Origin: Bdellovibrio sp. KM01
Lineage (GTDB): Bacteria; Bdellovibrionota; Bdellovibrionia; Bdellovibrionales; Bdellovibrionaceae
Assembly (NCBI RefSeq): GCF_013752535.1
Contig: NZ_CP058348.1
Location: forward strand, 1,674,001 to 1,738,000
Length of the DNA: 64,000 nt
Direction of reading: 5' to 3'
Below the pieces are notes generated by a model. The model was not told the DNA's origin, made no database searches, and saw nothing but the letters and a program-made list of their open reading frames with translations. Below, in pieces: positions 3,928 to 45,191 of this stretch (the stretch's first letter is position 1; each line of letters begins with the position of its first letter). The position numbers and the translations under genes were made by a program.

Positions 3928-5136
3928 TTAGGGAACAATTTTAAGAAAAATATCCCAGACGCGGCCTTTCTTAATGTCGCCTTTTTTATTTCGGTAAGTA
4001 AACTCGCCCGGGCCGACCACCTTAGCATGATTGTTTAGGTCCTGCGTGGTGTTTTCGTACTTTAAGGAAATGGATTCTACGCCCATGTCTTTAAGAGTTT
4101 TTATTTCCTTTGCAGCGCTTTTGCCGTCGTGATTGGAGTCTCTCCAAAGGCGGAGATGAGCCCAGATCGGATCTTTCACGTCAATGACTCCATCGTTATT
4201 GCTGTCATAAGCCTGAAGGTTTTTGAAGCCATCCTGGTAGTTATTGATGTCGCCAAAGAGCTCCGACCCAGCGTCAACTTTTCCATTTTTATTCGCGTCA
4301 TACACTAATAGATAGGTCTCGCTCTTAAATGACGGCCAAGAGATCTTATGAGGAGTCCCTTCAAACAGCGGGAAATAAGAAGTCTTATCCACAACGGGAA
4401 GGCTGTCGTCCTCGAACTTCAGTACGATAGGGGAGAAATAACCGCCACAGAACTTGTTTTCACCAGGAAAAGACGCAAGCATAGTTAACGTTTTTCCGTT
4501 TTCAGAGACATACCATTGATTGGAAGCAGTAACTGGACCATTAAAGGCCATGAATTGAGAAGGAGTGGTTGCCACTTCCTGTCTGAAACTGACGTCTTTA
4601 ATGAACTCAGATTTAACTGCAAACTCTGAAAGTTTGGTGAAATCGGTTCCCGAAGCCAAAACGTCAACGGGGATGGTTTTTGCTTCGGATAGGTTGATAC
4701 GAATCAGGTTGCCTTTTAGTGACGCATTCAAGTGAACCTTTGCATCGCCATTGACTACCGTATTATCTGTTATGTTTTGCGCGGCACCAGCGCCATACGT
4801 ATTCATGGTCGCCGTCGCTGGAAATTTGATCTCAACTTGTTTGTAAGCGCCACTCACGGTCAAGTATTTGAGATTCGCAAACAGCTGTGAATATTCAGAG
4901 ATTGGATTCGGCACGGAACGAAGATTGGTCCCGAAGCAGCTGACATAAATATCGAGTGTAGTAATGGCCCCGCTGGAGCCGTTTACTACCAATTGCGAAT
5001 CCAAGACCACGTCATTTAGATTCGGACCCGTAAAAGGCAGAACACTTGTCGTGGCAGCTTTAGTATCCGCGGCAAACGCAGTTGAACTTATCAAGGAACT
5101 CATCGTAAGGAGTGCAGTTAGGAATCTAGGTGTCAT
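3928..5136 (-). CDS. Secreted triple EF-hand protein, cassette 1
   Basis: A 402-residue protein with a cleavable signal peptide (residues 1-22, ending AFA). Three calcium-loop motifs lie near residues 280 (DANKNGKVD followed by ELFGD), 311 (DSNNDGVID) and 333 (DSNHDGKS), with the ELFGD...GF spacing known from calcium-binding regions of large surface proteins. A SFPGE...FCGG motif before the loops and a final WDIFL motif are shared with the proteins at 37881-39149 and 43920-45191. The ATG overlaps the TGA of the PilW-like gene (ATGA) and has GGAGG seven bases upstream. By position after three minor prepilins it resembles PilY1 in type IVa pilus operons, but it is not homologous by eye. A calcium-dependent tip or adhesive role is inferred. 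Confidence 0.85.
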   Translation of the reverse strand: MTPRFLTALLTMSSLISSTAFAADTKAATTSVLPFTGPNLNDVVLDSQLVVNGSSGAITTLDIYVSCFGTNLRSVPNPISEYSQLFANLKYLTVSGAYKQVEIKFPATATMNTYGAGAAQNITDNTVVNGDAKVHLNASLKGNLIRINLSEAKTIPVDVLASGTDFTKLSEFAVKSEFIKDVSFRQEVATTPSQFMAFNGPVTASNQWYVSENGKTLTMLASFPGENKFCGGYFSPIVLKFEDDSLPVVDKTSYFPLFEGTPHKISWPSFKSETYLLVYDANKNGKVDAGSELFGDINNYQDGFKNLQAYDSNNDGVIDVKDPIWAHLRLWRDSNHDGKSAAKEIKTLKDMGVESISLKYENTTQDLNNHAKVVGPGEFTYRNKKGDIKKGRVWDIFLKIVP

Positions 5137-6170
5137 CTGATGACCTCCATGCTAATAAGCGGAAGTGTCACTGATTTACGAACGAAAGTGGCAGACTTCA
5201 GGTCTGAGAGGAGCACATTTTTATCAACATATTGTCCTTGTTGATATATTTGAAAAACCAATTCATTTTTACTAGTCTGCGCATTAAGTCTAATCGTCAA
5301 TCGTGATAAGTTGACTGGCTCAACTTTGACAAAGGGAGCCGCACCACCCACTGGAGGAAGCGTTCTCAGAAAAATGTCAGCATTGTTATAGCTTGCGTTT
5401 GTAACTGGATGCGTATTTTGAAAGTTCACCGAGGCGAGAGCTGTCGTCATAGGAATCAAATCGTCGCCTGCAACGCGCCCCAGATAAGATGCAAAACGAG
5501 GTGCCGTTAGAATATTAATTCCCCCAGCACTGTTTAGCGGACGCAGGTAAGTCGGACAGGAGAGCAAGAATAGTTTTCCGTCTGCCCAGCGGTTTGAGAA
5601 AACCTTGGTCATTGTACCAGCGTTAGGGCCGCCGGCAGTACCGGTTACATTAGCAACGGAATTCAAACCTACATATTGAATAGATCCGTTGTTCATTAGA
5701 TCAGGGGAATTCCCTGCATTTTTATAAGCAAACATAGGGTCAAAGACCAAAGAGTCGAACTGGTCTTCTTCTGTCTGCAGCAGGTAGAAATATTTGCCTG
5801 CGGTTAAAGTTAACTTTCTTTCTGCGATATTCGCTTTGCTTAAAGTGGAGAATGGCACATCAGGATAGTAGTCATAAAAGTTTTTGCCGGTATCGTCGGT
5901 CAAGGAAAGCTTGTTAAAGCTCGCCGCGGATTTCTTAAGAATGTTGACGGTTGCGATATTTAAAGTTGAAAGATCGGCTTCGCCTTCAGAGCGTGCAGTT
6001 TGTTTTTTCAATGCCGTCGTAAAGTCAGCAATAAATTTGGCATTGCCCAGGGCCACAACGCCAATTAAGCCAACGACAACCATTAATTCCGTAACAGTCA
6101 TCCCACGCTTATTGAGAAGAGGATTGTGCTTCGCTATTTTACAGTGATGAAATAAGTGTACTTTTTCCAC
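5133..6170 (-). CDS. PilW/GspJ-like minor prepilin, cassette 1
   Basis: A prepilin of 345 residues from the GTG at 6170. The mature N-terminus follows KRG and reads MTVTELMVVVGLIG, with the conserved Glu at mature position 5 and one hydrophobic helix, so a prepilin peptidase should process it. The leader of about 24 residues is long. Motifs shared with the other two cassettes include DDTGKNFYDYYPD, FDPMFAY and FLRTLPPVGG. An in-frame ATG at 6185 is less likely because the Shine-Dalgarno AAGGAGGA falls inside the first codons after it and lies just before the GTG. It overlaps the small prepilin gene by 37 bases and the EF-hand gene by 4. It probably sits in the tip complex of a pilus or pseudopilus. 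Confidence 0.85.
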   Translation of the reverse strand: MEKVHLFHHCKIAKHNPLLNKRGMTVTELMVVVGLIGVVALGNAKFIADFTTALKKQTARSEGEADLSTLNIATVNILKKSAASFNKLSLTDDTGKNFYDYYPDVPFSTLSKANIAERKLTLTAGKYFYLLQTEEDQFDSLVFDPMFAYKNAGNSPDLMNNGSIQYVGLNSVANVTGTAGGPNAGTMTKVFSNRWADGKLFLLSCPTYLRPLNSAGGINILTAPRFASYLGRVAGDDLIPMTTALASVNFQNTHPVTNASYNNADIFLRTLPPVGGAAPFVKVEPVNLSRLTIRLNAQTSKNELVFQIYQQGQYVDKNVLLSDLKSATFVRKSVTLPLISMEVIR

Positions 6171-6604
6171 TGATCCTCCTTCCATTTGTTAGCAAGGATG
6201 TTCTGACTTGCCAGGGTAATTTTAATGTCGACCTGATAAAGATTACGTACGAACAAACTCGGGATGATAACGTAACCAAAATAGGCCTGACAGCCATCTT
6301 TTGCACATTGAGCTCTTGGAATTAAATTACCATTCGAAATTCCGTAGGGAAGTTTGTCTGCTGCCAGCAAAGCCTCTTCCTTTTTGACATTGGTTTCGAA
6401 GGTCACTTGATACATAGAAAGATTAAAGCGAATGCTTTCAACGATCGCCTGAACATTGTCGTTCGCAACACGCGATAGTTTTAGTTGTGATGTCATACCC
6501 GCAATGTAGCTGATATAGTAATAAGTCGAGTAGCTGACGATAATACCGATTGCGACAGCCGCTAACAACTCTATCATTGTGAAACCGCGATTACCGAGCT
6601 TCAT
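6134..6604 (-). CDS. Small PilV/GspI-like minor prepilin, cassette 1
   Basis: A 156-residue prepilin with a 7-residue leader ending NRG and mature start FTMIELLAAVAIG. Glu is at position 5 and the hydrophobic helix reaches about residue 36. The body shares YQVTF, a paired-cysteine segment (QC then GC five residues on) and GYVI with the small prepilins of cassettes 2 and 3. Start ATG 6604 has AAAGGG eight bases upstream and lies one base after the giant prepilin gene. It is expected to be cleaved by a PilD-type peptidase and to assemble with the two neighbouring prepilins into a tip complex. Assignment to pilus or T2SS cannot be made here because no assembly ATPase, secretin or platform gene is in the window. 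Confidence 0.85.
   Translation of the reverse strand: MKLGNRGFTMIELLAAVAIGIIVSYSTYYYISYIAGMTSQLKLSRVANDNVQAIVESIRFNLSMYQVTFETNVKKEEALLAADKLPYGISNGNLIPRAQCAKDGCQAYFGYVIIPSLFVRNLYQVDIKITLASQNILANKWKEDQWKKYTYFITVK
6174..6181 (-). promoter_or_regulatory. Ribosome binding site that sets the GTG start of the PilW-like gene
   Basis: AAGGAGGA on the minus strand lies three bases before GTG 6170-6168. It falls within the coding end of the upstream small prepilin gene, which supports translational coupling and excludes the ATG at 6185. The spacing is short. Confidence 0.6.
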
Positions 6605-6605
6605 A

Positions 6606-9110
6606 CTATAAACCCTTTCCGCGGCTAACTTCTTTGATTAAGAAGCGATTGGTTTGTTTTTTACATTTTACTATAGAGTCTTTAGCAGAAACGATTCCGC
6701 AATCCGGGTCTACCGTTGTCCACTTGAATGGATCCGAAGTTCTTAAGCTCACGGGGTTACAGATCCAATGCTGATATCGGTCGTTAATACCAATATTCGA
6801 CTGCCACAGAGGGGCAAGTGTCGCATTAGAACAACCTAAGTAGTTACCAGCTTTATCCTGGCCCAGGATCTTTGCATTAATAAGTTCTTGGACGGCTTGT
6901 GGCTGATAGATACTGCTCCAACGAATTCCTGCGGTGTAGGCAGTCGGGTGGATATTTAGCTGATTCGTGATAATTGTACCAATGATACGCAGTGGCTGCG
7001 TACGCTGGTTGATTGTCAGTCTTTCACAGACAAAAAAGCCCGTGATAAAAGTTTGATCCTGGGTAATCACACAGTTTGCTACCAATGAATCCGTGCGGAA
7101 TTTACCGCCCGAAAGGTTCACGGTTCCTTCATTGTATCCCGGATCATTGTTGTTCGCATAGGCGGGGTTGAACTTCCAAGCATGGCGCGCCTGTTCAGAG
7201 AAATCCGTATTCCATTTTGCCGCGGGAAAAGCTGAATAGTCTGATCCAGCGTCGCCCGGATCAGGCGATGCAAAACAGCGATCATCAAATTCGGCCAAAT
7301 TCTGCGCAGCTTCTGGAGGGCGGTGCAGTTGGTCGTACCCAGCTTCATTCGGCATCGGGTATTGCGGATCGTCCGCTCCAGCCATGCCCGAATAGTTCAC
7401 CCATTTCGCAGGGGTGGAACCATCTGGAAGTGTACCAGTCAGTACCATGGCACTTCCGACCTTGGTAAAATTCACGCCATTTGTTTTTTTATAGAATTCA
7501 CTGGTGGTATTTTGGCGCAGGTTTTTTCCGTCCAGATAACCATAATCGTAAGCTTCAAAAAGAAATTTAATACTTGGGGCAGATTTAACGTTATTGTTTG
7601 CGGCGCCATTTGAATAAGGTGCCAGGTTCACTTCACCATTGAATGTGAACTTAAGGTCTACTTGGTTGAACTGCTGACGACCCGCTACAACCAGAGGAGT
7701 GGATTGAATGACAATCGATGCACCACCCATGCCGGAAGGATAGAGAGTCACTTGTCCCTCGCGGTGAATGTAAAACTCAGTATAGTAAATCCCACGACTT
7801 CCCGTCGGACCTTGCAAACCATTGTAATAAACTTTGGCCTTCATGATGGGAGTACCTTGTGCCACTGTCACCGCAGCATTTGCAAGAACGCCCGGGACGT
7901 TGGTTACCGAGCTATAACCATCAACATCACCCTGTTCGATGAAGTTATCAATGTTACCTAGGTTAAATTGAACAACGGCAGAGTTCGTTTGCGATAGCGT
8001 CGGTCGCACCCATAATTGAGCCGAGGCTGTTTGATTCAAGTCATAGGATGCCATGATACGCTTGCGACACATTTTCTGAACATCGAAGATGCTTTCGCTG
8101 GCCTTAATGATATTAAATAAGTAATCAAGACCCGTATCACGTGTAGCATCCAGCTCAAATCCACCCAACATACCTGAAAAATTAGGCATGCTATAATTGT
8201 ACATATACCCATCACCACCGGCAGTTTTAACGATGTAGGGGGCGTTGTCCATTTTGATAGTTCCGCCACCCAGAACAACTTTGTCGACAAAGACAATGTT
8301 ATTCATCGCAGGCGTGGTATTGCTTGGAGGAAGGCTTAGATCGCCATTGATAAAGACGGGACTTTCAAAGCGAAGTCCGCCGTTGGAATTTTGAACATTG
8401 ATATTATCAAGACGAATATTGCCCGTACCCGCATCGTTCGTCCCAGAGGCTAAATTCAAGTTGTTTGAAACTATCAAAGCGAAGTAAGTAAGCTCACGCG
8501 GGTAGACGATATTTCTGGAAGTCAAAGTTTGATTCAACTCGGGGTTCGTCTTGTGTTTTAAGAACACAGTAATTCGCAACGGCACTTCGCGACCGCGTAC
8601 AGCGGAGATCGCCGTCGAATCACGATCGATGGTGATTTTTGCGGATTCAAACTCATCAATAATCGGTGTGACAACCGAATAAAGCGGATGGCTGTTCGTC
8701 AAAGTGCTGAAATTAATATTTCCCGTGATATTCATCAGGCGAGTGCTTGCCAATGGTTCAGGATGTGGAGTCTCTGAGTTTTTAATGAATAAAAGAGTTT
8801 CATCTGAAAGCAACAGACGTTGCGTATATCCCGAGCTCGTCAGATTGCAGTTCATATCCTGCGACCAGTTAGGCGATAAGCACCAGCTCTGTTTAATCGC
8901 ATTCACTGTATAAGAGTAAACCCCGTCCAACACGACACGGTGATCCGTTTTAGTAGCCGCCTTGTTTAGAACTTTTGCCTGACTTTCGATATAAGCGATG
9001 GAGGCGAAGAACATAATGCAAATCACCACCCCACCAATCAATGTGGTGAGGAGCACGGAGCCCTGTTGCGAGCGCAACAATCGCTTATGAAACGCACTTT
9101 GCTGGTTCAA
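6606..9110 (-). CDS. Giant GspK/PilX-like minor prepilin, cassette 1
   Basis: An 834-residue prepilin if it starts at TTG 9110. The leader ends QQG and the mature chain begins SVLLTTLIGGVVICIMFFASI. It lacks the Glu at position 5, as does GspK, the capping pseudopilin of type II secretion. The frame extends to 9236, but the longer N-terminus is unlike a prepilin leader, while TTG 9110 has AAGGGG just upstream and gives a 16-residue leader. The C-terminal part shares NCVITxxxTFxTGF, PLRIIGT, SSIYQPQ and DPFKWTxVDPDCG with the proteins at 33242 and 39359. Unlike them it has no coiled-coil/Pro-rich insert. It is far larger than classical GspK (about 300 residues). First gene of the cassette. Confidence 0.8.
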   Translation of the reverse strand: MNQQSAFHKRLLRSQQGSVLLTTLIGGVVICIMFFASIAYIESQAKVLNKAATKTDHRVVLDGVYSYTVNAIKQSWCLSPNWSQDMNCNLTSSGYTQRLLLSDETLLFIKNSETPHPEPLASTRLMNITGNINFSTLTNSHPLYSVVTPIIDEFESAKITIDRDSTAISAVRGREVPLRITVFLKHKTNPELNQTLTSRNIVYPRELTYFALIVSNNLNLASGTNDAGTGNIRLDNINVQNSNGGLRFESPVFINGDLSLPPSNTTPAMNNIVFVDKVVLGGGTIKMDNAPYIVKTAGGDGYMYNYSMPNFSGMLGGFELDATRDTGLDYLFNIIKASESIFDVQKMCRKRIMASYDLNQTASAQLWVRPTLSQTNSAVVQFNLGNIDNFIEQGDVDGYSSVTNVPGVLANAAVTVAQGTPIMKAKVYYNGLQGPTGSRGIYYTEFYIHREGQVTLYPSGMGGASIVIQSTPLVVAGRQQFNQVDLKFTFNGEVNLAPYSNGAANNNVKSAPSIKFLFEAYDYGYLDGKNLRQNTTSEFYKKTNGVNFTKVGSAMVLTGTLPDGSTPAKWVNYSGMAGADDPQYPMPNEAGYDQLHRPPEAAQNLAEFDDRCFASPDPGDAGSDYSAFPAAKWNTDFSEQARHAWKFNPAYANNNDPGYNEGTVNLSGGKFRTDSLVANCVITQDQTFITGFFVCERLTINQRTQPLRIIGTIITNQLNIHPTAYTAGIRWSSIYQPQAVQELINAKILGQDKAGNYLGCSNATLAPLWQSNIGINDRYQHWICNPVSLRTSDPFKWTTVDPDCGIVSAKDSIVKCKKQTNRFLIKEVSRGKGL

Positions 9111-9133
9111 ACAATCCCCTTTGTTCCATATTA

Positions 9134-9141
9134 ATATCGGC
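9134..9141 (-). promoter_or_regulatory. Candidate FliA-like -10 element for cassette 1
   Basis: The minus strand reads GCCGATAT, against the sigma-28 -10 consensus GCCGATAA. It lies 23 bases before the proposed TTG start at 9110. Matching boxes lie 22 and 21 bases before the lead genes of cassettes 2 and 3. No convincing -35 TAAAGTTT lies at the right distance, so this is a suggestion. Confidence 0.35.
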
Positions 9142-9336
9142 AGAATTGTTCCCTTATGTGAGTAAACGCTGCCAAAAAAAATTGACGGTCTTGTCTGAGA
9201 TTGAGACATAATATTTTCAGGTGTGCCATATGCCATCTGAGGATTGCGAATAAGTATTCATATTCCGGTCTTGAGGTCGGTTCCTCGAGAGAGCTTCCTT
9301 GGTAGTCTAAAGAAACCATACAAAAGGGAGGTCCCT

Positions 9337-9522
9337 ATGTCTCGCCATAACAAAGGAAAAGGATTTAGTCAGACCAGCAAACGTTATGATGGAAACATCA
9401 AGGAACAGCGAAGAGCTGCGCATAACAAACAGATGGATCACTCATCAGATGTTCAAGGGGAAACACACAGTGAAAATCAGTCCAGCGGGGAGAAGAACCC
9501 TAGCACGAGCCGCCGACAATAA
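9337..9522 (+). CDS. Small basic hydrophilic protein, unknown function
   Basis: A 61-residue protein starting MSRHNKGKGFSQ and rich in Lys, Arg, Gln, Ser and His, without hydrophobic segments or cysteines. The frame is open from 9244, but GGGAGG at 9327-9332 lies directly before ATG 9337, so the shorter form is chosen. It stands alone between the divergent cassette 1 and a convergent Lys-rich secreted protein gene. I do not recognise a family. Such small, charged, probably disordered proteins may bind nucleic acid, but nothing here proves it. Confidence 0.6.
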   Translation: MSRHNKGKGFSQTSKRYDGNIKEQRRAAHNKQMDHSSDVQGETHSENQSSGEKNPSTSRRQ

Positions 9523-9539
9523 TTCTGTATAAATAAACT

Positions 9540-9920
9540 TTATGGAGAGCCTTGGCCGGTGACAGAACCAGTGCCAGGGCTTTTCTTTTTCGTGGATTTC
9601 GCTTTTTTTCCGGTCGATTTTTTCACGCTGGCACTGGAGCGATTCTTCTTTTTGGAAGCTGTTTTGCTATGCGATTTTTTGGATTTTTTGCGGGATTTTT
9701 CGGCGCCGTATTTCTTTTTCGCTTCTTTGCGGATCGCGGCGTTTTCCTGAATGTAGGGAAGCATTCCTTGGTAGCCCGTGACAGGTTCTGTTGGTGAGGC
9801 GGATGCAGATTCTGCTGGTGGAGTTGCAGGAGGCGTAGTTTCTTGCGCCAAAGCCGTCACGCAAAATAATGCTGAAAATGAAATCACCAAGGTGTTTTTC
9901 AAGAGTTGTTTTATGTTCAT
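9540..9920 (-). CDS. Secreted Lys/Ser-rich protein with histone H1-like tail
   Basis: A 126-residue protein from ATG 9920, with a signal peptide (hydrophobic core about residues 7-24, ending ALAQ). A short Pro/Ala/Ser linker and a segment GYQGMLPYIQENAAIRKEAKKKYG follow. The last 55 residues are almost only Lys, Ser, Ala, Thr and Arg, resembling the low-complexity tail of histone H1. In a cytoplasmic protein this would suggest DNA binding, but the signal peptide points to the periplasm or beyond, where it could bind peptidoglycan, LPS or prey DNA (inference). No good Shine-Dalgarno precedes the ATG. A TTG two codons upstream is a less likely start. It is convergent with the 61-residue gene. 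Confidence 0.65.
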   Translation of the reverse strand: MNIKQLLKNTLVISFSALFCVTALAQETTPPATPPAESASASPTEPVTGYQGMLPYIQENAAIRKEAKKKYGAEKSRKKSKKSHSKTASKKKNRSSASVKKSTGKKAKSTKKKSPGTGSVTGQGSP

Positions 9921-9955
9921 GAGCAAAGACTAACGTGAATTATCTGTAAGCTCAA

Positions 9956-11098: not shown

Positions 11099-11153
11099 GA
11101 GCTCCTAAAAGGGTCATGGTAACGAGGCTTAGTTTAGGAATCTACCGGCGATG

Positions 11154-36200: not shown

Positions 36201-36385
36201 AAACTGCAGATCGCATGGCCTGCAACGTGATCAGTCTGCGTGCGAAAGCAGATCCATTTAAGTGGACGGCTGTGGATCCAGACTGTGGTGTGGATCCCGC
36301 CAAGAAACAAACGGTTCCAACATGCAAACGTCGTATTATTCGTTACTTCGTGGTTGAACAATCCCGGGAAGGGTTGGGGATGTGA
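33242..36385 (+). CDS. Giant GspK/PilX-like prepilin with coiled-coil hairpin, cassette 2
   Basis: A 1047-residue prepilin from ATG 33242 (GAGG five bases before; an ATG frame from 33185 is rejected). The 8-residue leader ends KSG, and the mature chain NAILQVLAALVVMGISFYFL lacks Glu5, as in GspK. Residues about 487-548 and 640-699 are two heptad-rich helices joined by a Pro/Ser/Thr-rich linker (553-628). The insert is absent from the cassette 1 protein. The C-terminal domain keeps SFGAANWGTSF, NCVIKAGATFVTGFYTCDNLTI, GTFIIGKTLKI and DPFKWTAVDPDCG. TGATG overlap couples it to the small prepilin. A tip protein with a projecting hairpin is inferred. Confidence 0.85.
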   Translation: MSVKNKSGNAILQVLAALVVMGISFYFLSAYVIAQRKQIVKTKNVVTLKFAVNSAMDYVVFGVRQKYCFDNGTILQNIDACNWKHAGNVERLVMSDEQLQSLREMVAAGANIGPHDTDMNKLRLDKIDLMLNFPVSPAHPLFPIVDALKTVVNETNGQVIKVKGIHIVLNRPENSGYLPKAGREVYIMAEASLLDDSGDVIQVGRVPLSVRSQIAIYPREMGSFALVLPKDLHMDKSWNASATDGDVNLHKFDDRASLGTSMGLVFNSPVFVNGNIYLPNDTGDAGTSNYAAVTFADRVYMGNGWILKSDGNPYAPATLGGLPDRYWSDSRVFGGFLNGIENDGSSDAGLEVMSGQVSNLPAGDFDWNRICADYNKKTVDIGTMKVSKIKAKMVDDSTNGSTQNSKYKITLSNYNQYYPQKNTIPAPNVEKWKPGTISVSNINKWGDSTTTGAVTSLILAYGTGSDYREVVFDMTKYGTAILLPQVINEDRRKNLEAALKEANDTINKSSDKTNALQSDLNKSMTDLAAANTELAKKKDELNTELAKPVYASPSPSPSVSPSPSPSASPTVSPSPTVSPSPTASPTVSPSVSPTVSPSVSPTVSPTASASVTPSPSATTSPSPTPAPTVGDPTLYQNPDTIAKLNQEIEALNKKISDLQAHIADLKNVQIPANDKNNSDAKATVSSATAALADYQQMIDNPPKFTIEMDAMKTGSGREYLDRAYLSVNLTNAANLRDIDGNKITVFSVRFKAYDGTYWNSAPVWPDENSDKHLMGYLNYSIDSGGNLIRPSGLSATANTSGAEEDESGNSTDIAQACEDFYDNMNSQSFGAANWGTSFAGGTRSSWNFAGVDSSVPKEKGHESEPILEERIFSADSTDFMVNSIVGNCVIKAGATFVTGFYTCDNLTIEGGRTKPLTIVGTFIIGKTLKINEQAIRTGIQWNSIYHPQSTRILRSRKILKPMTEPDNVAKCDKLPSPIWHPIPSIQETADRMACNVISLRAKADPFKWTAVDPDCGVDPAKKQTVPTCKRRIIRYFVVEQSREGLGM
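34898..35127 (+). repeat. Degenerate Pro-Ser/Thr codon repeat
   Basis: About 77 codons encoding repeats of Ser-Pro and Thr-Val-Ser-Pro. Codon choice varies (TCC, TCG, TCT, AGT), so the DNA is a degenerate rather than perfect microsatellite. It encodes the flexible loop between two coiled-coil helices of the cassette 2 prepilin. Confidence 0.85.
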
Positions 36386-36834
36386 TGAAAAAGCTAAACA
36401 CTCGTGGGCAAACAATTGTCGAATCATTGGTGGCATTGGGACTCATTTCCTTTATCGGTTTGATTTTTTTTGGTGGTTTGGTTCAGCTTCGTAAAACCAC
36501 ATCTGATAGCTTGCTTGATTCTGCAACCGACAGACAGATTTCCGACATTGCCGAAAACATTAAGGCCGGTGTGCAAAAGTATCAGGTGAATTTCAATCTC
36601 GACAAAGCGGCACTGGAAACTTTGCTTAAACCTGAAAATCTACCCATGGTTTGGGATGTTGGTGTGGTGGCGGAAAAAGGTCAGTGCGATCGCTGTCAGG
36701 GGACTTATGGTTATGTGATTCAGCCCTTTGATAAGTATCGTGGGCTTTACATGGTGACTTTGCGTCTTTCTCATAAGAGCTGGCTTCCTTCTGAGACGTA
36801 CCGTGACTATAACTTTATTGTGAGTGCAAAATAA
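36385..36834 (+). CDS. Small PilV/GspI-like prepilin, cassette 2
   Basis: A 149-residue prepilin from ATG 36385 in a TGATG overlap (a GTG three bases earlier would add one Met). The leader ends NTRG and the mature N-terminus QTIVESLVALGLISFIGLIFF has Glu5. The body contains YQVNF, a conserved CDRC pair, GYVIQPFDKYRGLYMVTLRLSHKSW and a final FIVSAK. It is close to its cassette 3 copy and more distant from the 6134-6604 protein. Its stop overlaps the next start (TAATG). Predicted minor pilin of the tip complex. Confidence 0.87.
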   Translation: MKKLNTRGQTIVESLVALGLISFIGLIFFGGLVQLRKTTSDSLLDSATDRQISDIAENIKAGVQKYQVNFNLDKAALETLLKPENLPMVWDVGVVAEKGQCDRCQGTYGYVIQPFDKYRGLYMVTLRLSHKSWLPSETYRDYNFIVSAK

Positions 36835-37832
36835 TGTTGAAAAACCAAAAGGGTTTAACCTTAGTAGAAATGATGCTCGGGATCGGATTATTCGCGATCG
36901 TGATTTCTATTGTTGTTGCTGTCCAGGTGAAAATGTCGCAACAGCAGGTGGAGATGATTAGAAAGCTGGATGATTCCGTGGACCAGCATTTGGCTGAAAG
37001 GATTCTTTTTAAAGATCTAAGCGGGATCGATATTTCCTATAACAATCTTTTGGTTAAAGATGACCATGGGAACAACTTTTATGATTTTTATCCTGACATC
37101 ACAGAGAATATTTTAAAAGTTCGAACTGATCGCGAGCTGAATTTAACTCTCGCAGGGAAGGATGCATTTTACGTTTTTTCGCAAAATTCTGCAGCCGGTC
37201 CGCTTTTAACCTTTGATCCTATGTGGGCCTATGATGTGGGACCTGAGCCCGCAGATCCCAATACGCCTGCTTCACTCGAGTTTAACGGTGAAAAAAATCG
37301 CAAGTGGATTTCTAATGAGAGTAACGGCGGGCGGCCCGGATTTTGGAAAGTTGGACATCTTCTTTTTTATGATACTCCAAGCCGGATTCGACCCAGTGTC
37401 GGTGATGTCATAGATAAAACCATTCCCCCACGGAGTTCATTTTTTCTGGGCGCGGTGATCTCTGGAAGTGACCTACTTCAAAAGGTGTCCGGTGATGCCG
37501 CTGGGTTGTTTAATATGACCGAGCCCGATACGGGCGACGCGATCAACAGTCTTGATGATTTTCTAAGAAAAGTTCCTGCTGTCGGAGGCGGACAAACCGT
37601 TGTTCGCGTGCGCGCTGCCAGATTGGTTAAATATTATATTGAACCAGATACCAAAAAAAATGCAGAACTTTATAAAATAGCTCCTGCCAACTTTTTTATG
37701 GCGGAGTACCGCAATGGCCAGTTCGAACAGCCGACGTTATTGGCCGATGGAGTGGGCAGAGTGTTGTTTCGTCGCGATTCAGTAGTTAAGAAAATGATTT
37801 ATTTTAAAATCGAAAAAGCCGAGTTGAAATAG
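36834..37832 (+). CDS. PilW/GspJ-like prepilin, cassette 2
   Basis: A 332-residue prepilin with leader MLKNQKG and mature start LTLVEMMLGIGLFAIVISIV, Glu at position 5. Shared family motifs are DDHGNNFYDFYPDITENIL, FDPMWAY, KWISNESNGGRPGFWK, YDTPSRIRP, FLRKVPAVGGGQT and FRRDSV. The start is in a TAATG overlap with the small prepilin gene. The size exceeds GspJ (about 200 residues) and fits larger PilW-like proteins. It should be processed by the prepilin peptidase and packed next to the giant prepilin. Confidence 0.87.
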   Translation: MLKNQKGLTLVEMMLGIGLFAIVISIVVAVQVKMSQQQVEMIRKLDDSVDQHLAERILFKDLSGIDISYNNLLVKDDHGNNFYDFYPDITENILKVRTDRELNLTLAGKDAFYVFSQNSAAGPLLTFDPMWAYDVGPEPADPNTPASLEFNGEKNRKWISNESNGGRPGFWKVGHLLFYDTPSRIRPSVGDVIDKTIPPRSSFFLGAVISGSDLLQKVSGDAAGLFNMTEPDTGDAINSLDDFLRKVPAVGGGQTVVRVRAARLVKYYIEPDTKKNAELYKIAPANFFMAEYRNGQFEQPTLLADGVGRVLFRRDSVVKKMIYFKIEKAELK

Positions 37833-37880
37833 TTTATTCAGTAAATGTTCAGTGCGTATTTTTTGTACAAGGGGAGCGTT

Positions 37881-39149
37881 ATGAAAGACTTAAATTTCTT
37901 GATAGCAGCAGTCTTGGGGTTATCGGCACCTGCTCATGCCGATCAGGAGTCTGTGGTGACCGTCAGCAAAGATGTCCCAATGGCCGTCAATTCTGTTTCG
38001 GCTGGAGAGTCTATTTCGGGAGCGCCGGCTTCAGGAACGGTCACTCGTTCGGGAAAAAGTACCATGACAGTTCGGTTGATCAATTCGTGTTTTGCCACGA
38101 ATTTGCGTGCAGTTTCCAATCCCTTGGCAAAGAGCTCTTTAATTAATGCCGATATTGAACTCAAAGTCGGAGGCGTCACATATAAACTCTTTGCTGAATA
38201 TCCTGCGGCTCTTGTGGGTGCCGGAGGCAGTGGCGTGCCAGCTTCGGGGACGGTCTCAAACTTTACCGCCTCTAAAGCGAGTGTGGAGCCGGTCGGGGGA
38301 ACTGTTGCAGCGTTTGGTAATATCGTCGAGTTCAAAACAAAAATTCCGACATCTGTGACGGTCGATAATGAAGCTACGATCACCATCTCCAAAGATTCTG
38401 TTTCTTTAGGAAAGATGTCCTTTCTGCAAAGCGTGCAAGATTGCAGCACGGGACCTGTCTTCGGTGATTATGGTTGGTCCTCAAAAATGCCCACTTATAA
38501 ATGCGGCAATTTTATGGGAAAGGACGGTGATATCACCGCGACATTTGGTGGCTTTAACGTCGCTCCCGATCGCTCCTTGGTTGAACTTTTCATCAGTTTT
38601 CCGGGTGAAACAGGTTTCTGTGGGGGATTTTGGTCACCGTTGATGGTTTTCTTTGATGATAAACTTCCAAAGTTTAATACACTCTCTGATTTTCCTTTGA
38701 ACCCAGGGGGAAAAGTCTATTGGCCAGATGCCAAGAGTCCTGGATTTTTTCTGGCGATGGACCGCGATCGCAATGGCAAAATTGATCAGAAGGATGAACT
38801 TTTTGGAGATAACAACTCCGCCATCAATGGCTTTGAAGCGTTAAAGAAGCTCGACACCAATCATGACGGCCTCATCGACGCCAAAGATAAAGATTTTAAA
38901 AGGTTGGTGTTATGGAATGACAAGAATGCTGATGGTATCAGTCAGTCGAAGGAACTAACGGATGCAGGGCTGAAGCTCAGCAAAATTTCATTGAAGTATC
39001 GAATGAGCGCCGAAAGTTTAGGAAACGCAGAAATTCGCGAGCGGGCAAAGTTCTGGTACACCGATGCGAAAGGAAAGCAGCGCTCAGGAAATATTTATGA
39101 CATTTGGCTAGCACCTCATATTCCGACCCAACTTGCGGAATCGAAATAA
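37881..39149 (+). CDS. Secreted triple EF-hand protein, cassette 2
   Basis: A 422-residue protein from ATG 37881, with GGGGAG five bases upstream; a frame start at 37845 is unlikely. The signal peptide ends AHA. The mature N-terminus VVTVSKDVPMAVNSVSAG is almost identical in cassette 3. Calcium loops start near residues 294 (DRDRNGKID then ELFGD), 325 (DTNHDGLID) and 347 (DKNADGIS). SFPGETGFCGG and FWYTDAKGK are shared with the third copy. Last gene of the cassette, probably exported by Sec and acting outside with the prepilins. Adhesin or calcium-gated tip function is inferred. Confidence 0.87.
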   Translation: MKDLNFLIAAVLGLSAPAHADQESVVTVSKDVPMAVNSVSAGESISGAPASGTVTRSGKSTMTVRLINSCFATNLRAVSNPLAKSSLINADIELKVGGVTYKLFAEYPAALVGAGGSGVPASGTVSNFTASKASVEPVGGTVAAFGNIVEFKTKIPTSVTVDNEATITISKDSVSLGKMSFLQSVQDCSTGPVFGDYGWSSKMPTYKCGNFMGKDGDITATFGGFNVAPDRSLVELFISFPGETGFCGGFWSPLMVFFDDKLPKFNTLSDFPLNPGGKVYWPDAKSPGFFLAMDRDRNGKIDQKDELFGDNNSAINGFEALKKLDTNHDGLIDAKDKDFKRLVLWNDKNADGISQSKELTDAGLKLSKISLKYRMSAESLGNAEIRERAKFWYTDAKGKQRSGNIYDIWLAPHIPTQLAESK

Positions 39150-39337: not shown

Positions 39338-39358
39338 GTTCTCACAGGAGCCATCGGT

Positions 39359-42300
39359 ATGTTTATGAAAACGAGTAAACAAAAAGGTAACGCAATTCTG
39401 CAGGTCCTTACCGCCATCGCGGTGATGAGCATCAGTTTCTATTTTTTATCTGCATACGTTATCTCTCAACGAAGACAAGTAGTTAAAACCAAGAACGTGG
39501 TGAATCTTAAGTTCGCAGTGAACAGTGCGATGGACTACGTTGTCTTTGGTATCCGTCAAAAGTACTGCTTTGATAATGGATCACTTCTTCAAAACACAAC
39601 AAGCTGTGATTGGAACAACCCAGGTAACGTCGAACGTTTGGTGATGTCAGATGAGCAGTTGGCCTCCCTTAAGGGAATGGTGGCTGCTGGTGCGAATATT
39701 GGTCCTCATGATTCCAATTTGGATAAATTACGTCTTGATTTCATCGATATGACATTGAATTTTCCGGTGTCGTCAGCCCATCCTTTATTTCCTGTCGTGA
39801 ATAATTTGAAACGCGTGGTGGACGAGCAAACGGGTAAAGAGATTCCGGTTCAAGGTATTCGTATGTATCTAAGTCGTCCAGCGAACTCGGGTTACTTGCC
39901 GAAAGCAGGACGTGAAGTATATGTCTCGGCACAGATTTCATTAATTGATAAAAATAAAAATGTCATCCAGATCGGAAGTGCGCCTCTTGAAGTGCGTGCT
40001 CAAATCGCTATTTATCCACGCGAGCTAGGTTCCTTTGCGCTGGTGCTTCCCGGCGACCTTCGCATGGACCGTACGTGGGATTCAGTACCACCGAAAAATG
40101 GCGACGTTATTTTCCATAAATTTGCAAACAAAGCGACCATGGGCACAAGCCCCGGCATGATTTTTAAAAGCCCCGTTTTCGTAAACGGTAACATCAATTT
40201 ACCTGTGGATAGCGGCAATGCTTCTAACTCGAACTATGCTGGCGTAACCTTTGCGGATCGCGTGTACATGGGGAATGGTTGGATTTTAAAACCGGACAAC
40301 TCTCCTTATAATCCTCCAACTCAGGGTGCACTTCCTGATCGTTATTGGTCAGATTCCCGCGTGTTTGGAGGATTCTTAAGAGGTATAGAAAACGATGGTA
40401 TGCGTGACTTGGGTCTTGATGTTATGTCGGGGACCGCGAGTGGCTCTTCTGGTACCGAATTCGACCTTAATAAAATTTGCGCTGAACTTAATCAGAAAAG
40501 CACGCAACTTGAATCAATGGAGGCGTCTAATATCAAGGCCACGCCTGGAAAGAATCCAGACGACCCTTATCGTGTTGTCCTTACTAATTACAATACGTTT
40601 TATCCTCAAAAAAATCAGTTACCAGCTCCAACGACATCAGGGGACTGGAGTACGGGTAAGTGGTCCATTGATAATAAAAATAAAATAACGGGCGCCATCA
40701 TGAATGTTGAATTTTCATATGGTACAGGTGCTGATGCCCGTTCATTTAGTGTCGACCTTGTTAAGGACGGGAATGTTACAATTTTCCCTCCGGTTCTAAA
40801 TCCTGCAAGAAAAGCGGCAATTGTTGCGAACTTAAATCAGGCAAATACCGATTATAAGAATGCTAAAAATTCAGACACATCGAATACGGACAGCTTAACT
40901 AAACTAAAAAAGAAGTTAAACACCGCAGAATCAGAACTCAGTGATTTGGAAGATCAATTGGATGCAGAACTAGCGAAGCCGGTCGAGCCGGTGGCAGCGC
41001 CGTCTCCTTCACCGACGGCCACGGCAACAGTTTCTCCAAGTCCGACGGCGACAGCTACGGCAAGTGCATCACCGACGGCCACTGCGTCAGCGACTGCTTC
41101 ACCGACTGCTACGGCTACGGCATCGGCGTCTCCGACAGCTACAGCTTCTCCAACTGTAACAGCAACTACAACTGCTACGGTATCACCAACAGTTTCTCCG
41201 ACCGTGACTCCGCCTCCTGGGGGGTACCAGGATGCTGATAAGATCAAAGACTTAAAGGCACAAATTTCAGCCAAAAAGTCTGAAATTTCTGATTTAAAAA
41301 ATCAGATCACCGCTGCTGAAACAAATTCGACGAATTATACTAAGGCGATGGCAGACGCCCAGAATAATATTGCGAAGTACACGGCACAGCTTGATGCCTA
41401 TACGGCATTGGAGAAAAATCCTCCATCATTTGAAATTGACTTGGACAAAGCTTACAGCTGGACAGGAAAAGAATATAAAGACCGTTTGGATGTTTTAATC
41501 GGTATCAATAACGGCTTGTACCTTATGAATGCTGCGGGTGTCCGTATTGCTGATTTCTCAATTCGTTTAAAAGGTTACGACGGCACTTACTACAACAGTA
41601 TCCCGGTCCGTTCAACGGCGGATCCAGCCCATCTGCGTGGTTATTTGAACTACCATATCGGAGCGAGTGGCAATATCACTCGTCCTACCGGTCTTTCATC
41701 AACGTCTTCAACGGGTGATACTTCTGAAGATACGGCGGACATGGCTGCGAAGTGTGAAGACTACTATAATATGATTAACTCCCAGTCTTTCGGGGCTGCG
41801 AACTGGGGTGTGAGCTTCTCTCCAGGGACAAGAAAGTCATGGAACTTTGCGGGTGATCTAAACGCGACAGCTGCAGATCCAGTGGTTCCAAGCAGAACTT
41901 GGACGATGGATGACCAGGACTTCTATGTTCGTTCTATCGTGAAAGACTGTGTGATCACTCCAAAAGCCAACTTCGTTGCGGGTTTCTATACGTGTGACAA
42001 CTTAACGATCCAGGGTGGTCGTACAAAACCATTGCGCATCATCGGTACCTTTATCATTGGTAAAACTTTGAAAATTGATGAGCAAGCAATTCGAACGGGT
42101 ATCGTTTGGAGCAGTATCTATTATCCTCAGGCGACACAAGAGCTCAGAGAGCGTGGAATTTTGCATCCTTTGTCCGAGCCTAGTAATATAACGAAATGTG
42201 ATAATTTGCCGTCACCAATCTGGCATCCAATGCCCTCGATTCAAGAGACAGCGGATCGCATGGCTTGTAACGTGATCAGTTTGCGCGCGAAAGCAGATCC

Positions 42301-42430
42301 ATTTAAGTGGACAGCGGTGGATCCGGATTGTGGTATCCCAGTGGGGGCAACACAAACTGTTCCGACTTGTAAGCGTCGTATTTACCACTACTTCGTTGTC
42401 GAGCAGTCTAGGGAAGGTTCAGGACTATGA
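39359..42430 (+). CDS. Giant GspK/PilX-like prepilin with coiled-coil hairpin, cassette 3
   Basis: A 1023-residue prepilin whose leader of 10 residues ends KQKG and whose mature N-terminus NAILQVLTAIAVMSISFYFL lacks Glu5. AGGAG lies nine bases before ATG 39359; ATG 39365 is an alternative. Residues about 480-545 and 625-684 are heptad-rich helices joined by a Pro/Thr/Ala-rich linker (about 548-621) that differs in composition from the Pro/Ser linker of cassette 2. The flanking regions are highly similar to cassette 2, including NPGNVERLVMSDEQL-type and SFGAANWG motifs and the C-terminal DPFKWTAVDPDCG. Its ATGA overlap couples it to the small prepilin. Confidence 0.85.
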   Translation: MFMKTSKQKGNAILQVLTAIAVMSISFYFLSAYVISQRRQVVKTKNVVNLKFAVNSAMDYVVFGIRQKYCFDNGSLLQNTTSCDWNNPGNVERLVMSDEQLASLKGMVAAGANIGPHDSNLDKLRLDFIDMTLNFPVSSAHPLFPVVNNLKRVVDEQTGKEIPVQGIRMYLSRPANSGYLPKAGREVYVSAQISLIDKNKNVIQIGSAPLEVRAQIAIYPRELGSFALVLPGDLRMDRTWDSVPPKNGDVIFHKFANKATMGTSPGMIFKSPVFVNGNINLPVDSGNASNSNYAGVTFADRVYMGNGWILKPDNSPYNPPTQGALPDRYWSDSRVFGGFLRGIENDGMRDLGLDVMSGTASGSSGTEFDLNKICAELNQKSTQLESMEASNIKATPGKNPDDPYRVVLTNYNTFYPQKNQLPAPTTSGDWSTGKWSIDNKNKITGAIMNVEFSYGTGADARSFSVDLVKDGNVTIFPPVLNPARKAAIVANLNQANTDYKNAKNSDTSNTDSLTKLKKKLNTAESELSDLEDQLDAELAKPVEPVAAPSPSPTATATVSPSPTATATASASPTATASATASPTATATASASPTATASPTVTATTTATVSPTVSPTVTPPPGGYQDADKIKDLKAQISAKKSEISDLKNQITAAETNSTNYTKAMADAQNNIAKYTAQLDAYTALEKNPPSFEIDLDKAYSWTGKEYKDRLDVLIGINNGLYLMNAAGVRIADFSIRLKGYDGTYYNSIPVRSTADPAHLRGYLNYHIGASGNITRPTGLSSTSSTGDTSEDTADMAAKCEDYYNMINSQSFGAANWGVSFSPGTRKSWNFAGDLNATAADPVVPSRTWTMDDQDFYVRSIVKDCVITPKANFVAGFYTCDNLTIQGGRTKPLRIIGTFIIGKTLKIDEQAIRTGIVWSSIYYPQATQELRERGILHPLSEPSNITKCDNLPSPIWHPMPSIQETADRMACNVISLRAKADPFKWTAVDPDCGIPVGATQTVPTCKRRIYHYFVVEQSREGSGL
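41000..41223 (+). repeat. Degenerate Pro-Thr-Ala codon repeat
   Basis: About 74 codons encoding units such as SPTATAS. The codons are varied. It occupies the same place as the Pro-Ser repeat of cassette 2 but has diverged to a different residue mix and ends in TPPPGG. Confidence 0.85.
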
Positions 42431-42885
42431 TTAAAAAATCATTTCTCCAACAATCAAAAGGTCAATCCATCGTTGAAGCACTGGTGGCTTTAGGTCTGAT
42501 CTCAGTGATCGGTCTTGCTTTCACAGGCGGACTGGTGCAGTTACGTAATACTTCGAAATCGAGCTTGCTGGCATCTGCGACAGATCGTCAGGTGTCAGAT
42601 ATTTCCGAGAACATCAAGGCCGGCGTTCAAGACTATCAAGTGAACTTTGACTATGATCCTTCACAGATTGATACGTATCTGGCTTTGAACAATCTGCCCA
42701 TGCAATGGGATGTGGGCAGAGTTGCAGCAAAAGGGCAGTGTGATACTTGTCAGGGAACTTATGGCTATTTGATTCAACCCTATGAAAAGTATCGTGGTCT
42801 TTATTTAGTGACCTTGCGTATGACTCATAAAAGCTGGTTGCCTGAGAAATTTAGAGACTACACATTCGTGGTGAGTGCAAAATGA
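42427..42885 (+). CDS. Small PilV/GspI-like prepilin, cassette 3
   Basis: A 152-residue prepilin: leader ending QQSKG, mature start QSIVEALVALGLISVIGL with Glu5. It shares YQVNFDYD, CDTC, GYLIQPYEKYRGLYLVTLRMTHKSW and FVVSAK with the cassette 2 copy. ATG 42427 overlaps the stop of the giant prepilin gene (ATGA), and its own TGA overlaps the next start. The CxxC pair is conserved and may form a disulfide. Predicted minor pilin in the same tip complex. Confidence 0.87.
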   Translation: MIKKSFLQQSKGQSIVEALVALGLISVIGLAFTGGLVQLRNTSKSSLLASATDRQVSDISENIKAGVQDYQVNFDYDPSQIDTYLALNNLPMQWDVGRVAAKGQCDTCQGTYGYLIQPYEKYRGLYLVTLRMTHKSWLPEKFRDYTFVVSAK

Positions 42886-43898
42886 TGATTCGAAATCAAA
42901 AGGGTCTATCACTAGCAGAGCTTCTGGTCGGGATAGGGTTATCCGCGGTGGTCATTTCTGTGGTCGTTGCAGTTCAGGTCCAAATCACGAAAGAGCAAAC
43001 AAAACTGACAAGACAACTGGACGATTCCATTGACCAGAATCTTGCCGAGCGTATTACATTTAAAAATCTGAATGGTGTGGAAGCTTCCTATAACAACATC
43101 GTTGTTAAAGACGATAACGGGAACAACTTTTACGACTATTACCCTGACGTTACGGAAAATGTTCTAACAGGCAAGACCGACCGTGATTTCACGTTGATCT
43201 ATTCTGGCAAAAGAGCATTTTACGTTGTGACCCAGGATATGGGAGCAGGGCCTCTTTTAACTTACGATCCGGTATGGGCGTATATCATCGGTACGGATCC
43301 TGGGGATCCTAATAAACCAGCGTCTCTTACTTTTAGTCCCGCGAATAACAGAAAATGGATTTCTAACGAAGCCAATGGCGGACGCCCGGGCTTTTGGAAA
43401 GATGGAAATCTATTGATGTACGATACTCCAAGTCGTATTCGTCCTGCACCTGGGGGCGTGATAGATATGAAGATTCCACCACGCAGCCCCATCTATGTAG
43501 GTTCAGTTTCCACGGCGGCGGGTGATTCGTTGCAGGGGTTGAATAATGAAGCGGCAAGCTTATTTAAGAATACACAACCGTATAATGGTAAAGTGATTGA
43601 TAGTTTAGATACGTTTTTGCGTACACTTCCATCCGTGGGTGGGGGGCAAACCATTGTACGTACAAGAGTTATTAAAATCGCAAAATACTATGTTGAAATC
43701 GATACCAAGAAAAAGGCCAGTGAATATAAAACAACACCTTTGAATTTATATGTTGCTGACTACAGAAATGGAAAATTCGACAACCCAACGTTGCTTGCAG
43801 ACGGGGTGGAAAAAATGATTTTCCGCCGCGACTCAGTTTTGAAAAGAATGATTTATTTTAAAATATATAAAGCGGAAAGATTAGACGGACAAAACTAG
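42882..43898 (+). CDS. PilW/GspJ-like prepilin, cassette 3
   Basis: A 338-residue prepilin with leader ending QKG and mature start LSLAELLVGIGLSAVVISVV, Glu5 present. DDNGNNFYDYYPDVTENVL, YDPVWAY, NEANGGRPGFWKDG, YDTPSRIRP, FLRTLPSVGGGQT and FRRDSVLKRMIYF are nearly identical to the cassette 2 copy, so the two arose by a recent tandem duplication. ATG 42882 overlaps the preceding stop by four bases, with a second ATG at 42885 possible. Confidence 0.87.
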   Translation: MMIRNQKGLSLAELLVGIGLSAVVISVVVAVQVQITKEQTKLTRQLDDSIDQNLAERITFKNLNGVEASYNNIVVKDDNGNNFYDYYPDVTENVLTGKTDRDFTLIYSGKRAFYVVTQDMGAGPLLTYDPVWAYIIGTDPGDPNKPASLTFSPANNRKWISNEANGGRPGFWKDGNLLMYDTPSRIRPAPGGVIDMKIPPRSPIYVGSVSTAAGDSLQGLNNEAASLFKNTQPYNGKVIDSLDTFLRTLPSVGGGQTIVRTRVIKIAKYYVEIDTKKKASEYKTTPLNLYVADYRNGKFDNPTLLADGVEKMIFRRDSVLKRMIYFKIYKAERLDGQN

Positions 43899-43919
43899 TA
43901 TCCGCTTTAGGGGGACGTT

Positions 43920-45191
43920 ATGAAAACAATAGCTATTTTGGGAGGCGCGCTGGTCTTGTTGACTTCCAGTGCTTTCGCAGACCAAAACAACGTTGTGACG
44001 GTCAGTAAGGACGTGCCGATGGCCGTCAACTCGGTAAGCGCCGGGGAATCTGTCGTGGGAGCTCCGGCTTCTGGCACAGTCACTCGTTCTGGCCGAGATA
44101 CGATGACTGTTCGTCTGGTGAATTCATGTTTTGGTACGAATCTTCGTGCTGTGACAAATCCACTGGCTAAAAGCTCTCTTATCACTGCTGATATAAATAT
44201 CCTGGTCGGTGCCACAAACTATAATCTGGGTGTTGAGTATCCAGCAGTTATCGTAACTCCGGAAGGTACGGGGAATGTCGGTAACGGTAGCGTGGGCAAC
44301 ATTAAAGCCTCTAAGGTAAGAATGAACCCTGCCGGTGGTACAGCCGCGGTTTACGGGAATATCGTTGAATTTAAAACGAAAATCCCAACGGGTGTGACAG
44401 TTGATAACCAAGCAAACATCTCCGTTTCAAAATCAAATGTTTCTTTGGGGAATATGAGTTTTGAACAAGAGATCTTGGATTGTAAAACGGGCCCGGTTTT
44501 CGGGGACTACGGTTGGTCATCCAAAATGCCAACCTATGGCTGCGGCGACTTCATGGGTAAGGATGGCGCCGTGACTGCCACAATCGGTGGTTTTAACGTT
44601 TCTCCAGACCGCTCCACAGTTGAAATCTTCATCAGCTTCCCAGGTGAAACGGGCTTCTGTGGTGGTTACTGGTCGCCACTTATGGTGTTCTTTGATGACA
44701 ATTTGCCAACGTTTGAAAACGTAAGTTCTTTTCCTCTAAATCCAGGTGGAAAAGTGTATTGGCCGAATGCCAATCACCCGGGATATTTCTTAGCTCTTGA
44801 CCGCGATAAAAACGGAATGATCGATAAGAAAGACGAGCTTTTTGGTGACAACAACACGGCGATCAATGGTTTTGAATCCTTGAAGAAATTCGATTCCAAT
44901 AAAGACGGCGTGATCGATGCCAAAGACAAGGAATTTAAACGCTTAGTTCTTTGGAAAGATATCAACGGTGACGGCGTTTCGCAAAAAGGTGAAATGACCA
45001 AGGCTGCTTTGAAGTTGGACAAGATTTCTTTGAACTATGAAAATTACGAGGAAGCTCGCGGTAAAAACGCTGAGATCCGCCAACGTGCGAAGTTCTGGTA
45101 CACCGATGCCAAAGGTAAAAAGAAAACCGGAAACGTTTACGATATTTGGTTCGCACCTTATATCCAAACGAACCTAGCTGATACCAAATAG
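43920..45191 (+). CDS. Secreted triple EF-hand protein, cassette 3
   Basis: A 423-residue secreted protein; the signal peptide ends AFA. ATG 43920 follows an AGGGGGA Shine-Dalgarno. Calcium loops start near residues 294 (DRDKNGMID then ELFGD), 325 (DSNKDGVID) and 347 (DINGDGVS). VVTVSKDVPMAVNSVSAGES, SCFGTNLRAVTNPLAKSSL, SFPGETGFCGGYWSPL and FWYTDAKGK are shared with cassette 2. The stop at 45191 touches the end of the convergent TlpA-like gene with no gap. Predicted extracellular or surface calcium-binding partner of the prepilins. Confidence 0.87.
   Translation: MKTIAILGGALVLLTSSAFADQNNVVTVSKDVPMAVNSVSAGESVVGAPASGTVTRSGRDTMTVRLVNSCFGTNLRAVTNPLAKSSLITADINILVGATNYNLGVEYPAVIVTPEGTGNVGNGSVGNIKASKVRMNPAGGTAAVYGNIVEFKTKIPTGVTVDNQANISVSKSNVSLGNMSFEQEILDCKTGPVFGDYGWSSKMPTYGCGDFMGKDGAVTATIGGFNVSPDRSTVEIFISFPGETGFCGGYWSPLMVFFDDNLPTFENVSSFPLNPGGKVYWPNANHPGYFLALDRDKNGMIDKKDELFGDNNTAINGFESLKKFDSNKDGVIDAKDKEFKRLVLWKDINGDGVSQKGEMTKAALKLDKISLNYENYEEARGKNAEIRQRAKFWYTDAKGKKKTGNVYDIWFAPYIQTNLADTK

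Follow-up and report, generated by a model that had tools for sequence, protein, structure and literature searches.

Three paralogous prepilin cassettes of Bdellovibrio sp. KM01 as probable type IV pilus tip complexes with an SPM-like protein in the place of PilY1

The way in which Bdellovibrio bacteriovorus takes hold of its prey is poorly understood. A 64,000-nucleotide stretch of the genome of Bdellovibrio sp. KM01 (the window; positions 1674001-1738000 of the complete 3.96-Mb genome) raises the question of which filament is served by three paralogous operons, cassettes 1 to 3, each of which encodes a giant prepilin, a small PilV-like prepilin, a PilW-like prepilin, and a secreted EF-hand protein. 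The original prediction, made from the DNA alone, was that the cassettes encode alternative tip complexes for a type IV pilus or for the pseudopilus of a type II secretion system (T2SS). Our analysis favors, with a probability of roughly 0.6, alternative tip or priming complexes of a type IV pilus, most likely the type IVa pilus (T4aP), in which a secreted protein with a domain like the self-processing module (SPM) of FrpC replaces PilY1, the tip protein used by most bacteria.

All twelve open reading frames (ORFs) were found in the predicted order, at the predicted coordinates and on the predicted strands (Table 1), and within each cassette neighboring genes either share a few bases or lie no more than tens of bases apart, as is typical of an operon. 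As shown by the translations, the leaders of all nine prepilins end in glycine. In cassettes 1, 2, and 3, the cleavage regions read RSQQG/SVLLT, KNKSG/NAILQ, and SKQKG/NAILQ in the giants, which do not have Glu5, GNRG/FTMIE, NTRG/QTIVE, and QSKG/QSIVE in the small prepilins, and NKRG/MTVTE, NQKG/LTLVE, and NQKG/LSLAE in the PilW-like prepilins, all six of which carry Glu5. The cassettes aligned gene by gene in separate alignments of giants, small prepilins, PilW-like prepilins, and EF-hand proteins. The identity was 61-70% between cassettes 2 and 3 (for the giant, over the C-terminal 280 residues), and against cassette 1 it was 27-30% for the giants and 34-37% for the EF-hand proteins of cassettes 2 and 3. 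Judged by these alignments, the homology among the three cassettes is far above chance. When the genome was searched with a profile of the giant family, only the three giants of the window were recovered, other matches lying in the insert region of the profile.

The distribution of the cassettes was analyzed in 320 Bdellovibrionota genomes. Giants were present in 59 of them, 22 of which belong to the same genus, and as a deeper profile returned the same 59 genomes, the giant family is sharply bounded. A gene-neighborhood survey, which had been proposed together with the prediction, covered 49 giant loci. All three partners adjoin the giant in 48 of these, and the remaining locus is truncated within the fourth gene by the end of its contig. 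The order differs in five loci, which have the EF-hand gene directly upstream of the giant and not as the last gene. The pairwise distances of the four genes are correlated at r 0.84-0.93, i.e., the genes have diverged together, and the block is inherited as a unit. The absence of Glu5 from giants holds family-wide (0/48), in contrast to the small prepilins (48/49 with Glu5) and the PilW-like prepilins (48/48), which is the pattern found for PilX and GspK. The C-terminal cysteine pattern is largely fixed across the giants. The tandem arrangement of cassettes 2 and 3 is also present in two relatives (G209 and G118). Cassette 1 is of a different type, which in several species comes with genes for a Cys-rich protein and for a spermidine-synthase-like membrane protein. 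Three minor prepilins with a dedicated secreted Ca2+-binding partner, kept together as a block, probably form a tip or priming complex, and to this extent the prediction stands.

The fourth protein had been described as a triple EF-hand protein. Three Ca2+ loops are indeed kept, but this label understates the domain, which is of the FrpC SPM type (profile match, E 1.9e-28). The cassette 3 protein (423 residues) was modeled from a 46-row alignment with a pLDDT of 75.7 and a pTM of 0.55, the EF-hand region at residues ~320-411 being mostly above 90. The model matched the SPM of FrpC from Neisseria meningitidis with a Foldseek E of 2e-9 and a Z score of 19.0 over 154 residues (2.6 A, 30% identity). 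The first Ca2+ loop of FrpC is missing and the other three are retained, which accounts for the triple EF-hand. The FrpC SPM is unfolded without Ca2+ and folds cooperatively with it, whereupon the Asp414-Pro415 bond breaks and the aspartate can be linked to a lysine (PMC7078468). Serine occupies the cut-site position in 45 of 46 cassette homologues, among them the three proteins of the window, so that Ser-Pro replaces the Asp-Pro of FrpC, whereas the following proline and the equivalents of W451, W519, and D579 are invariant in all 46. With serine at this position, cleavage by the published FrpC route is unlikely in the cassette proteins; Ca2+-driven folding of their SPM-like domains is likely. 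Residues 57-244 form a beta-sandwich with a weak likeness (Z ~5) to adhesin domains of Gram-positive pili, and the stretch between the signal peptide and this sandwich was modeled at low confidence. A possible donor strand in the N-terminus, in low-confidence residues 16-58, would parallel the strand complementation between PilX and PilY1; on this point the model is suggestive only.

Proteins that have no pilin neighbors can carry an SPM-like domain as well, so the module was recruited from a wider family. The Ser-Pro motif was considered as a mark of pilus-linked SPMs and rejected, as many SPM-like proteins without pilin neighbors have it and Asp-Pro is rare. One protein without pilin neighbors is lipoprotein-like, lies at ~2.528 Mb of the same genome (L208), and is kept in related species; as a candidate for an intact Asp-Pro SPM it proved ambiguous, since different alignments place the cut site differently. 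In another genome (G056), an SPM-like domain is located inside a 5987-aa open frame, possibly a large adhesin (L155; G056:C12:62000-72404), and a giant cassette is flanked on its other side by a second, longer SPM-like protein (743 aa; L095:9182-11413).

An SPM-like protein is also found beside prepilins unrelated to those of the cassettes. One member of the same genus without giants (G157) encodes a 1130-residue secreted protein with the SPM-like C-terminal domain SWSPLLLDIGGTGI, followed by a PilW-like (543 aa), a Glu5-less (546 aa), and a PilV-like (179 aa) prepilin (L123:6437-13652). We surveyed 369 genomes with a profile of the SPM only, of which 107 were positive, and fetched 60 further neighborhoods. 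In at least nine other loci, an SPM protein of ~1000-1130 aa lies beside Glu5-containing prepilins of PilW-like and usually also of PilV-like size, and a Glu5-less prepilin was found in the loci of this type read at the level of N-termini (L159, L164, L165, and L187). Several of these blocks continue with a ~500-aa membrane protein that by eye resembles glycosyltransferases. That this composition recurs although the sequences are unrelated is, among the comparative arguments, the strongest for assigning the SPM-like protein to the minor-pilin complex.

The giant prepilin had been called GspK-like, and its position and missing Glu5 agree with this name. However, profile searches with Pfam and NCBIfam gave no T2SSK or NF037980 match for the giants at E up to 1, and the genome has a separate, recognizable GspK, so that membership in the GspK family was rejected. 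The same kind of search had matched the helices of the small and PilW-like prepilins to N_methyl/TIGR02532 and T4a pilins. The model of the cassette 1 giant (pLDDT 83.6, pTM 0.76) has a long helix at the N-terminus, followed by further strands and by a large beta region that includes an Ig-like domain (residues 363-553), and it ends in a last strand at the very C-terminus. Its best structural match was ComZ of Thermus (Z 8.1, 284 residues, spanning model residues 58-834); GspK did not appear in the list of structural matches, an absence that carries no weight. A sequence profile of the giant matched entries of the PDB only by chance in coiled coils. ComZ, a GspK-like pilin into which a beta-solenoid is inserted, fits only at the pilus tip, as its authors argued (PMC6561018). 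We treat the likeness of the modeled giant to ComZ as a lead, not as membership. The giants of cassettes 2 and 3 contain a coiled coil and a Pro/Ser/Thr-rich insert that are absent from cassette 1.

The arrangement had been thought not to be described, which was only partly right, as orthologues from B. bacteriovorus HD100 were published in 2025 as predicted complexes (PMC12034629), with predation phenotypes in PMC6561027. One relative in our sample (G073) has two loci with ORFs of 995/153/328/418 and 924/162/325/384 residues; the published sizes are 995/153/328/414 for Bd2212/2211/2210/2209 and 901/162/325/384 for Bd2726/2725/2724/2723 (PMC12034629). Moreover, position 2110823, given to Bd2212 in PMC3013116, lies within a giant of this genome. 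From the agreement in ORF size and position we infer that these loci are the HD100 operons Bd2209-2212 and Bd2723-2726. Cassettes 2 and 3 occupy the site that corresponds to Bd2209-2212, with a CDF transporter upstream and a thioredoxin and an ABC1 kinase downstream. For both HD100 operons, four-protein complexes were predicted with the giant as the hub (ipTM 0.852 and 0.837); both are expressed in attack phase, and Bd2210, Bd2211, Bd2212, and Bd2723 were noted with loss of predation (PMC12034629). The main text of that study never uses the word pilin, and neither the minor pilins nor the SPM were identified by its authors. New in our analysis are the minor-pilin identity, the SPM homology with its Asp-to-Ser change, the probable replacement of PilY1 by the SPM-like protein, the ComZ-like modeled fold of the giant, the lack of a PilY1 domain match in 320 genomes, the extent of the family in the phylum, and the second cassette type. 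A Bd2210 transposon mutant was defective in attachment, killing, and rounding and was classed with a pilT mutant; Bd2726 is also listed as required for predation (PMC6561027). Because insertions in each of the two HD100 operons impair predation, the tips are probably not simply redundant, and the word alternative is doubtful if taken in this sense. Bd2210 was formerly a hypothetical protein; with our reading, Bd2209-2212 and Bd2723-2726 become a testable pilus-tip complex with a candidate prey-binding surface.

Which filament carries the cassettes was left open between type IV pilus and T2SS in the original prediction. The genome encodes PilA and PilT of a T4aP and, at 1578-1594 kb, a T2SS operon with its own GspG, H, I, J, and K, compared to 1678-1719 kb for the cassettes. 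No cassette adjoins T2SS genes in the loci read. The phyletic pattern failed to discriminate between the two systems, as both PilT (299/320) and GspK (288/320) are widespread in the phylum; apparent absences of GspK in three cassette genomes are due to divergent GspKs. That the cassettes provide extra tips for a T2SS pseudopilus, with the EF-hand/SPM protein as a dedicated T2SS cargo or plug, is in line with GspK/J/I-like roles suggested by size and missing Glu5, with the presence of a T2SS in most of the phylum, and with prepilin peptidases being common to different systems. We nevertheless regard it as improbable in view of the complete set of pseudopilins in the T2SS operon, the distance from T2SS genes, and the failure of the Bd2210 mutant at attachment, as seen for the pilT mutant (PMC6561027). 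Because the T2SS has its own GspG-H-I-J-K, the T4aP is by elimination the likeliest owner of the cassettes; this leaning falls short of proof. The tips of a pilus of the Tad/Kil type, such as the interchangeable Kil tips of Myxococcus, are somewhat less probable still. Kil tips, too, consist of three minor pilins, of which the largest bears a variable domain that is exposed, and B. bacteriovorus is reported to have structural analogues of them (PMC12075869). Yet the cassette prepilins matched N_methyl/TIGR02532 and T4a pilins as described above, with no match to TadE/Flp or another Tad family in Pfam/NCBIfam at E up to 1, and the same account gives Kil tips no separate secreted fourth protein.

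In the T4aP reading, each cassette would encode one tip or priming complex, so that three cassettes would yield three tips. The Glu5-less giant would be a ComZ-like hub at the position of GspK or PilX, its N-terminal helix packing with those of the small PilV-like and the PilW-like prepilins, and priming of the filament would take place in the inner membrane, where the giant would be the topmost subunit. The SPM-like protein, which has no pilin helix and is exported by Sec, would dock on the giant, lie outermost at the tip, and do the job of PilY1. Ca2+ would fix the fold of its SPM-like domain, and with serine in place of the cutting aspartate the protein would stay attached instead of being clipped off. 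Its N-terminal domain and the inserts of the giants would contact the prey, and retraction of the pilus would draw the predator in. Alternatively, the three prepilins might form the tip while the SPM-like protein is no structural part of it but a released effector or adhesin that the filament delivers, in the way the toxin-coregulated pilus (TCP) delivers TcpF. Its being a Sec-secreted non-pilin and the TcpB-TcpF precedent, cited in PMC12075869, fit this idea. It is unlikely, however, as the HD100 protein is predicted to be held within the complex (ipTM 0.84-0.85; PMC12034629) and as the SPM-like protein co-diverges one-to-one with the prepilins.

Several observations weigh against T4aP tips built on an SPM-like protein. 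Giants are missing from 261 of the 320 genomes, nearly all of which have PilT, and from two members of the same genus; therefore, the cassette is not needed for T4aP in the phylum. No FimU/GspH-like prepilin is present in the cassettes, which have three prepilins each, and no direct link of the cassettes to PilA, PilQ, or PilB was found. With a Z score of 8.1 and an overall rmsd of 12.8, the giant matches ComZ modestly, Foldseek gave no significant match for the giant, and Ser-Pro SPM-like domains are not pilus-specific. The absence of PilY1, which speaks for such tips, is provisional: its domain (PF05567 beta-propeller) had no match in this genome or in 320 relatives, 299 of which have PilT, but no positive control gave a signal. 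With these points in mind we advance only tentatively, at slightly less than even odds, the wider proposal that Bdellovibrionota no longer use PilY1 and instead base the tips of type IV pili on an FrpC SPM that is repurposed and cleavage-dead, in at least two unrelated cassette types, and that duplication and swapping of cassettes with ComZ-like hub giants diversify the prey-facing surface. It would suggest a way for a T4aP to work without PilY1.

Table 1. Genes of the three cassettes and of two companions, in window positions
Feature	Position	Strand	Remarks
Cassette 1 giant prepilin	6606..9110	-	834 aa from TTG at 9110; longer ATG ORF to 9236; no Glu5; ComZ-like modeled fold
Cassette 1 small PilV/GspI-like prepilin	6134..6604	-	156 aa; Glu5
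Cassette 1 PilW/GspJ-like prepilin	5133..6185	-	350-aa ORF; Glu5
Cassette 1 secreted protein	3928..5136	-	Sec signal; N-terminal beta-sandwich; C-terminal SPM-like Ca2+ domain; S-P at the D-P site of FrpC
Cassette 2 giant prepilin	33242..36385	+	1047 aa; ORF from 33185; no Glu5; coiled coil and Pro/Ser/Thr-rich insert
Cassette 2 small prepilin	36382..36834	+	150 aa; Glu5
Cassette 2 PilW-like prepilin	36834..37832	+	332 aa; Glu5; together with cassette 3 co-orthologous to Bd2210
Cassette 2 secreted SPM-like protein	37878..39149	+	ORF from 37845
Cassette 3 giant prepilin	39359..42430	+	1023-aa ORF; no Glu5; coiled coil and Ala/Thr/Ser/Pro-rich insert
Cassette 3 small prepilin	42427..42885	+	152 aa; Glu5
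Cassette 3 PilW-like prepilin	42882..43898	+	338 aa; Glu5
Cassette 3 secreted SPM-like protein	43920..45191	+	423 aa; SPM-like domain at ~residues 253-417 (DNA 44676-45170)
Cys-rich single-TM protein	3079..3897	-	272 aa; companion of cassette-1-type blocks in other species
Membrane protein with spermidine-synthase-like domain	905..3079	-	724 aa; companion of cassette-1-type blocks

Further prepilin genes were seen elsewhere in the genome. Two small prepilin groups lie at L034:7024-10069 and L035:6624-8969. At 84000-100000 of the genome (L036), ORF 7176-10097 encodes a 973-aa giant prepilin that has Glu5 and is accompanied by ORFs 6204-7229, 5425-6192, and 3215-4798; it is divergent from a 341-aa prepilin. 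A spermidine-synthase-like membrane protein (PF01564) adjoins this giant, and because cassette 1 also has such a neighbor, pilin loci and spermidine-synthase-like proteins recur together.

The closest known counterparts are the HD100 operons Bd2209-2212 and Bd2723-2726, which have the same four genes in the same order and with matching sizes. HD100 carries a single copy (Bd2209-2212) where KM01 has the tandem pair; neither HD100 cassette is of the cassette 1 type, and KM01 does not have the Bd2726 type. Among better-studied pili, the minor pilin/PilY1 clusters 1-3 of Myxococcus xanthus (PMC7541494, PMC13190605) resemble the cassettes in forming three paralogous sets, in a PilX without Glu5, and in one secreted tip protein with Ca2+ dependence, and all three serve one T4aP (PMC7541494). 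In the cassettes, by contrast, FimU is absent, PilY1 is replaced by a beta-sandwich and SPM-like protein, and PilX by a giant of 834-1047 aa. Furthermore, cluster 1 or 3 alone suffices in M. xanthus, whereas both operons matter in HD100. Kil (Tad) tips 1-4 of M. xanthus share with the cassettes the use of several interchangeable minor-pilin complexes in predation; they differ in their Tad-class pilins and in having no dedicated secreted fourth protein described (PMC12075869).

ComZ and PilA2 of Thermus thermophilus (PMC6561018; PDB 6qvi) likewise combine a large GspK-like pilin that has a big beta insert with a small GspI-like partner. The giants of the cassettes are larger than ComZ, show no sequence match to it, and have an Ig-like domain, a coiled-coil/Pro-Ser-rich insert (cassettes 2 and 3), and a conserved cysteine pattern; they also have an SPM partner, and none is described for ComZ. 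With the FrpC SPM (PMC7078468; PDB 6sjw), the cassette protein shares the fold, three of four Ca2+ loops, the tryptophan pair, the proline after the cut, and the distal aspartate. It differs in having serine for the cut-site aspartate, in the missing first Ca2+ loop, and in not being an RTX protein secreted by a type I system. The comparison suggests that a self-cleaving bacterial module has been reused, its chemistry apparently switched off, as a Ca2+-dependent structural part.

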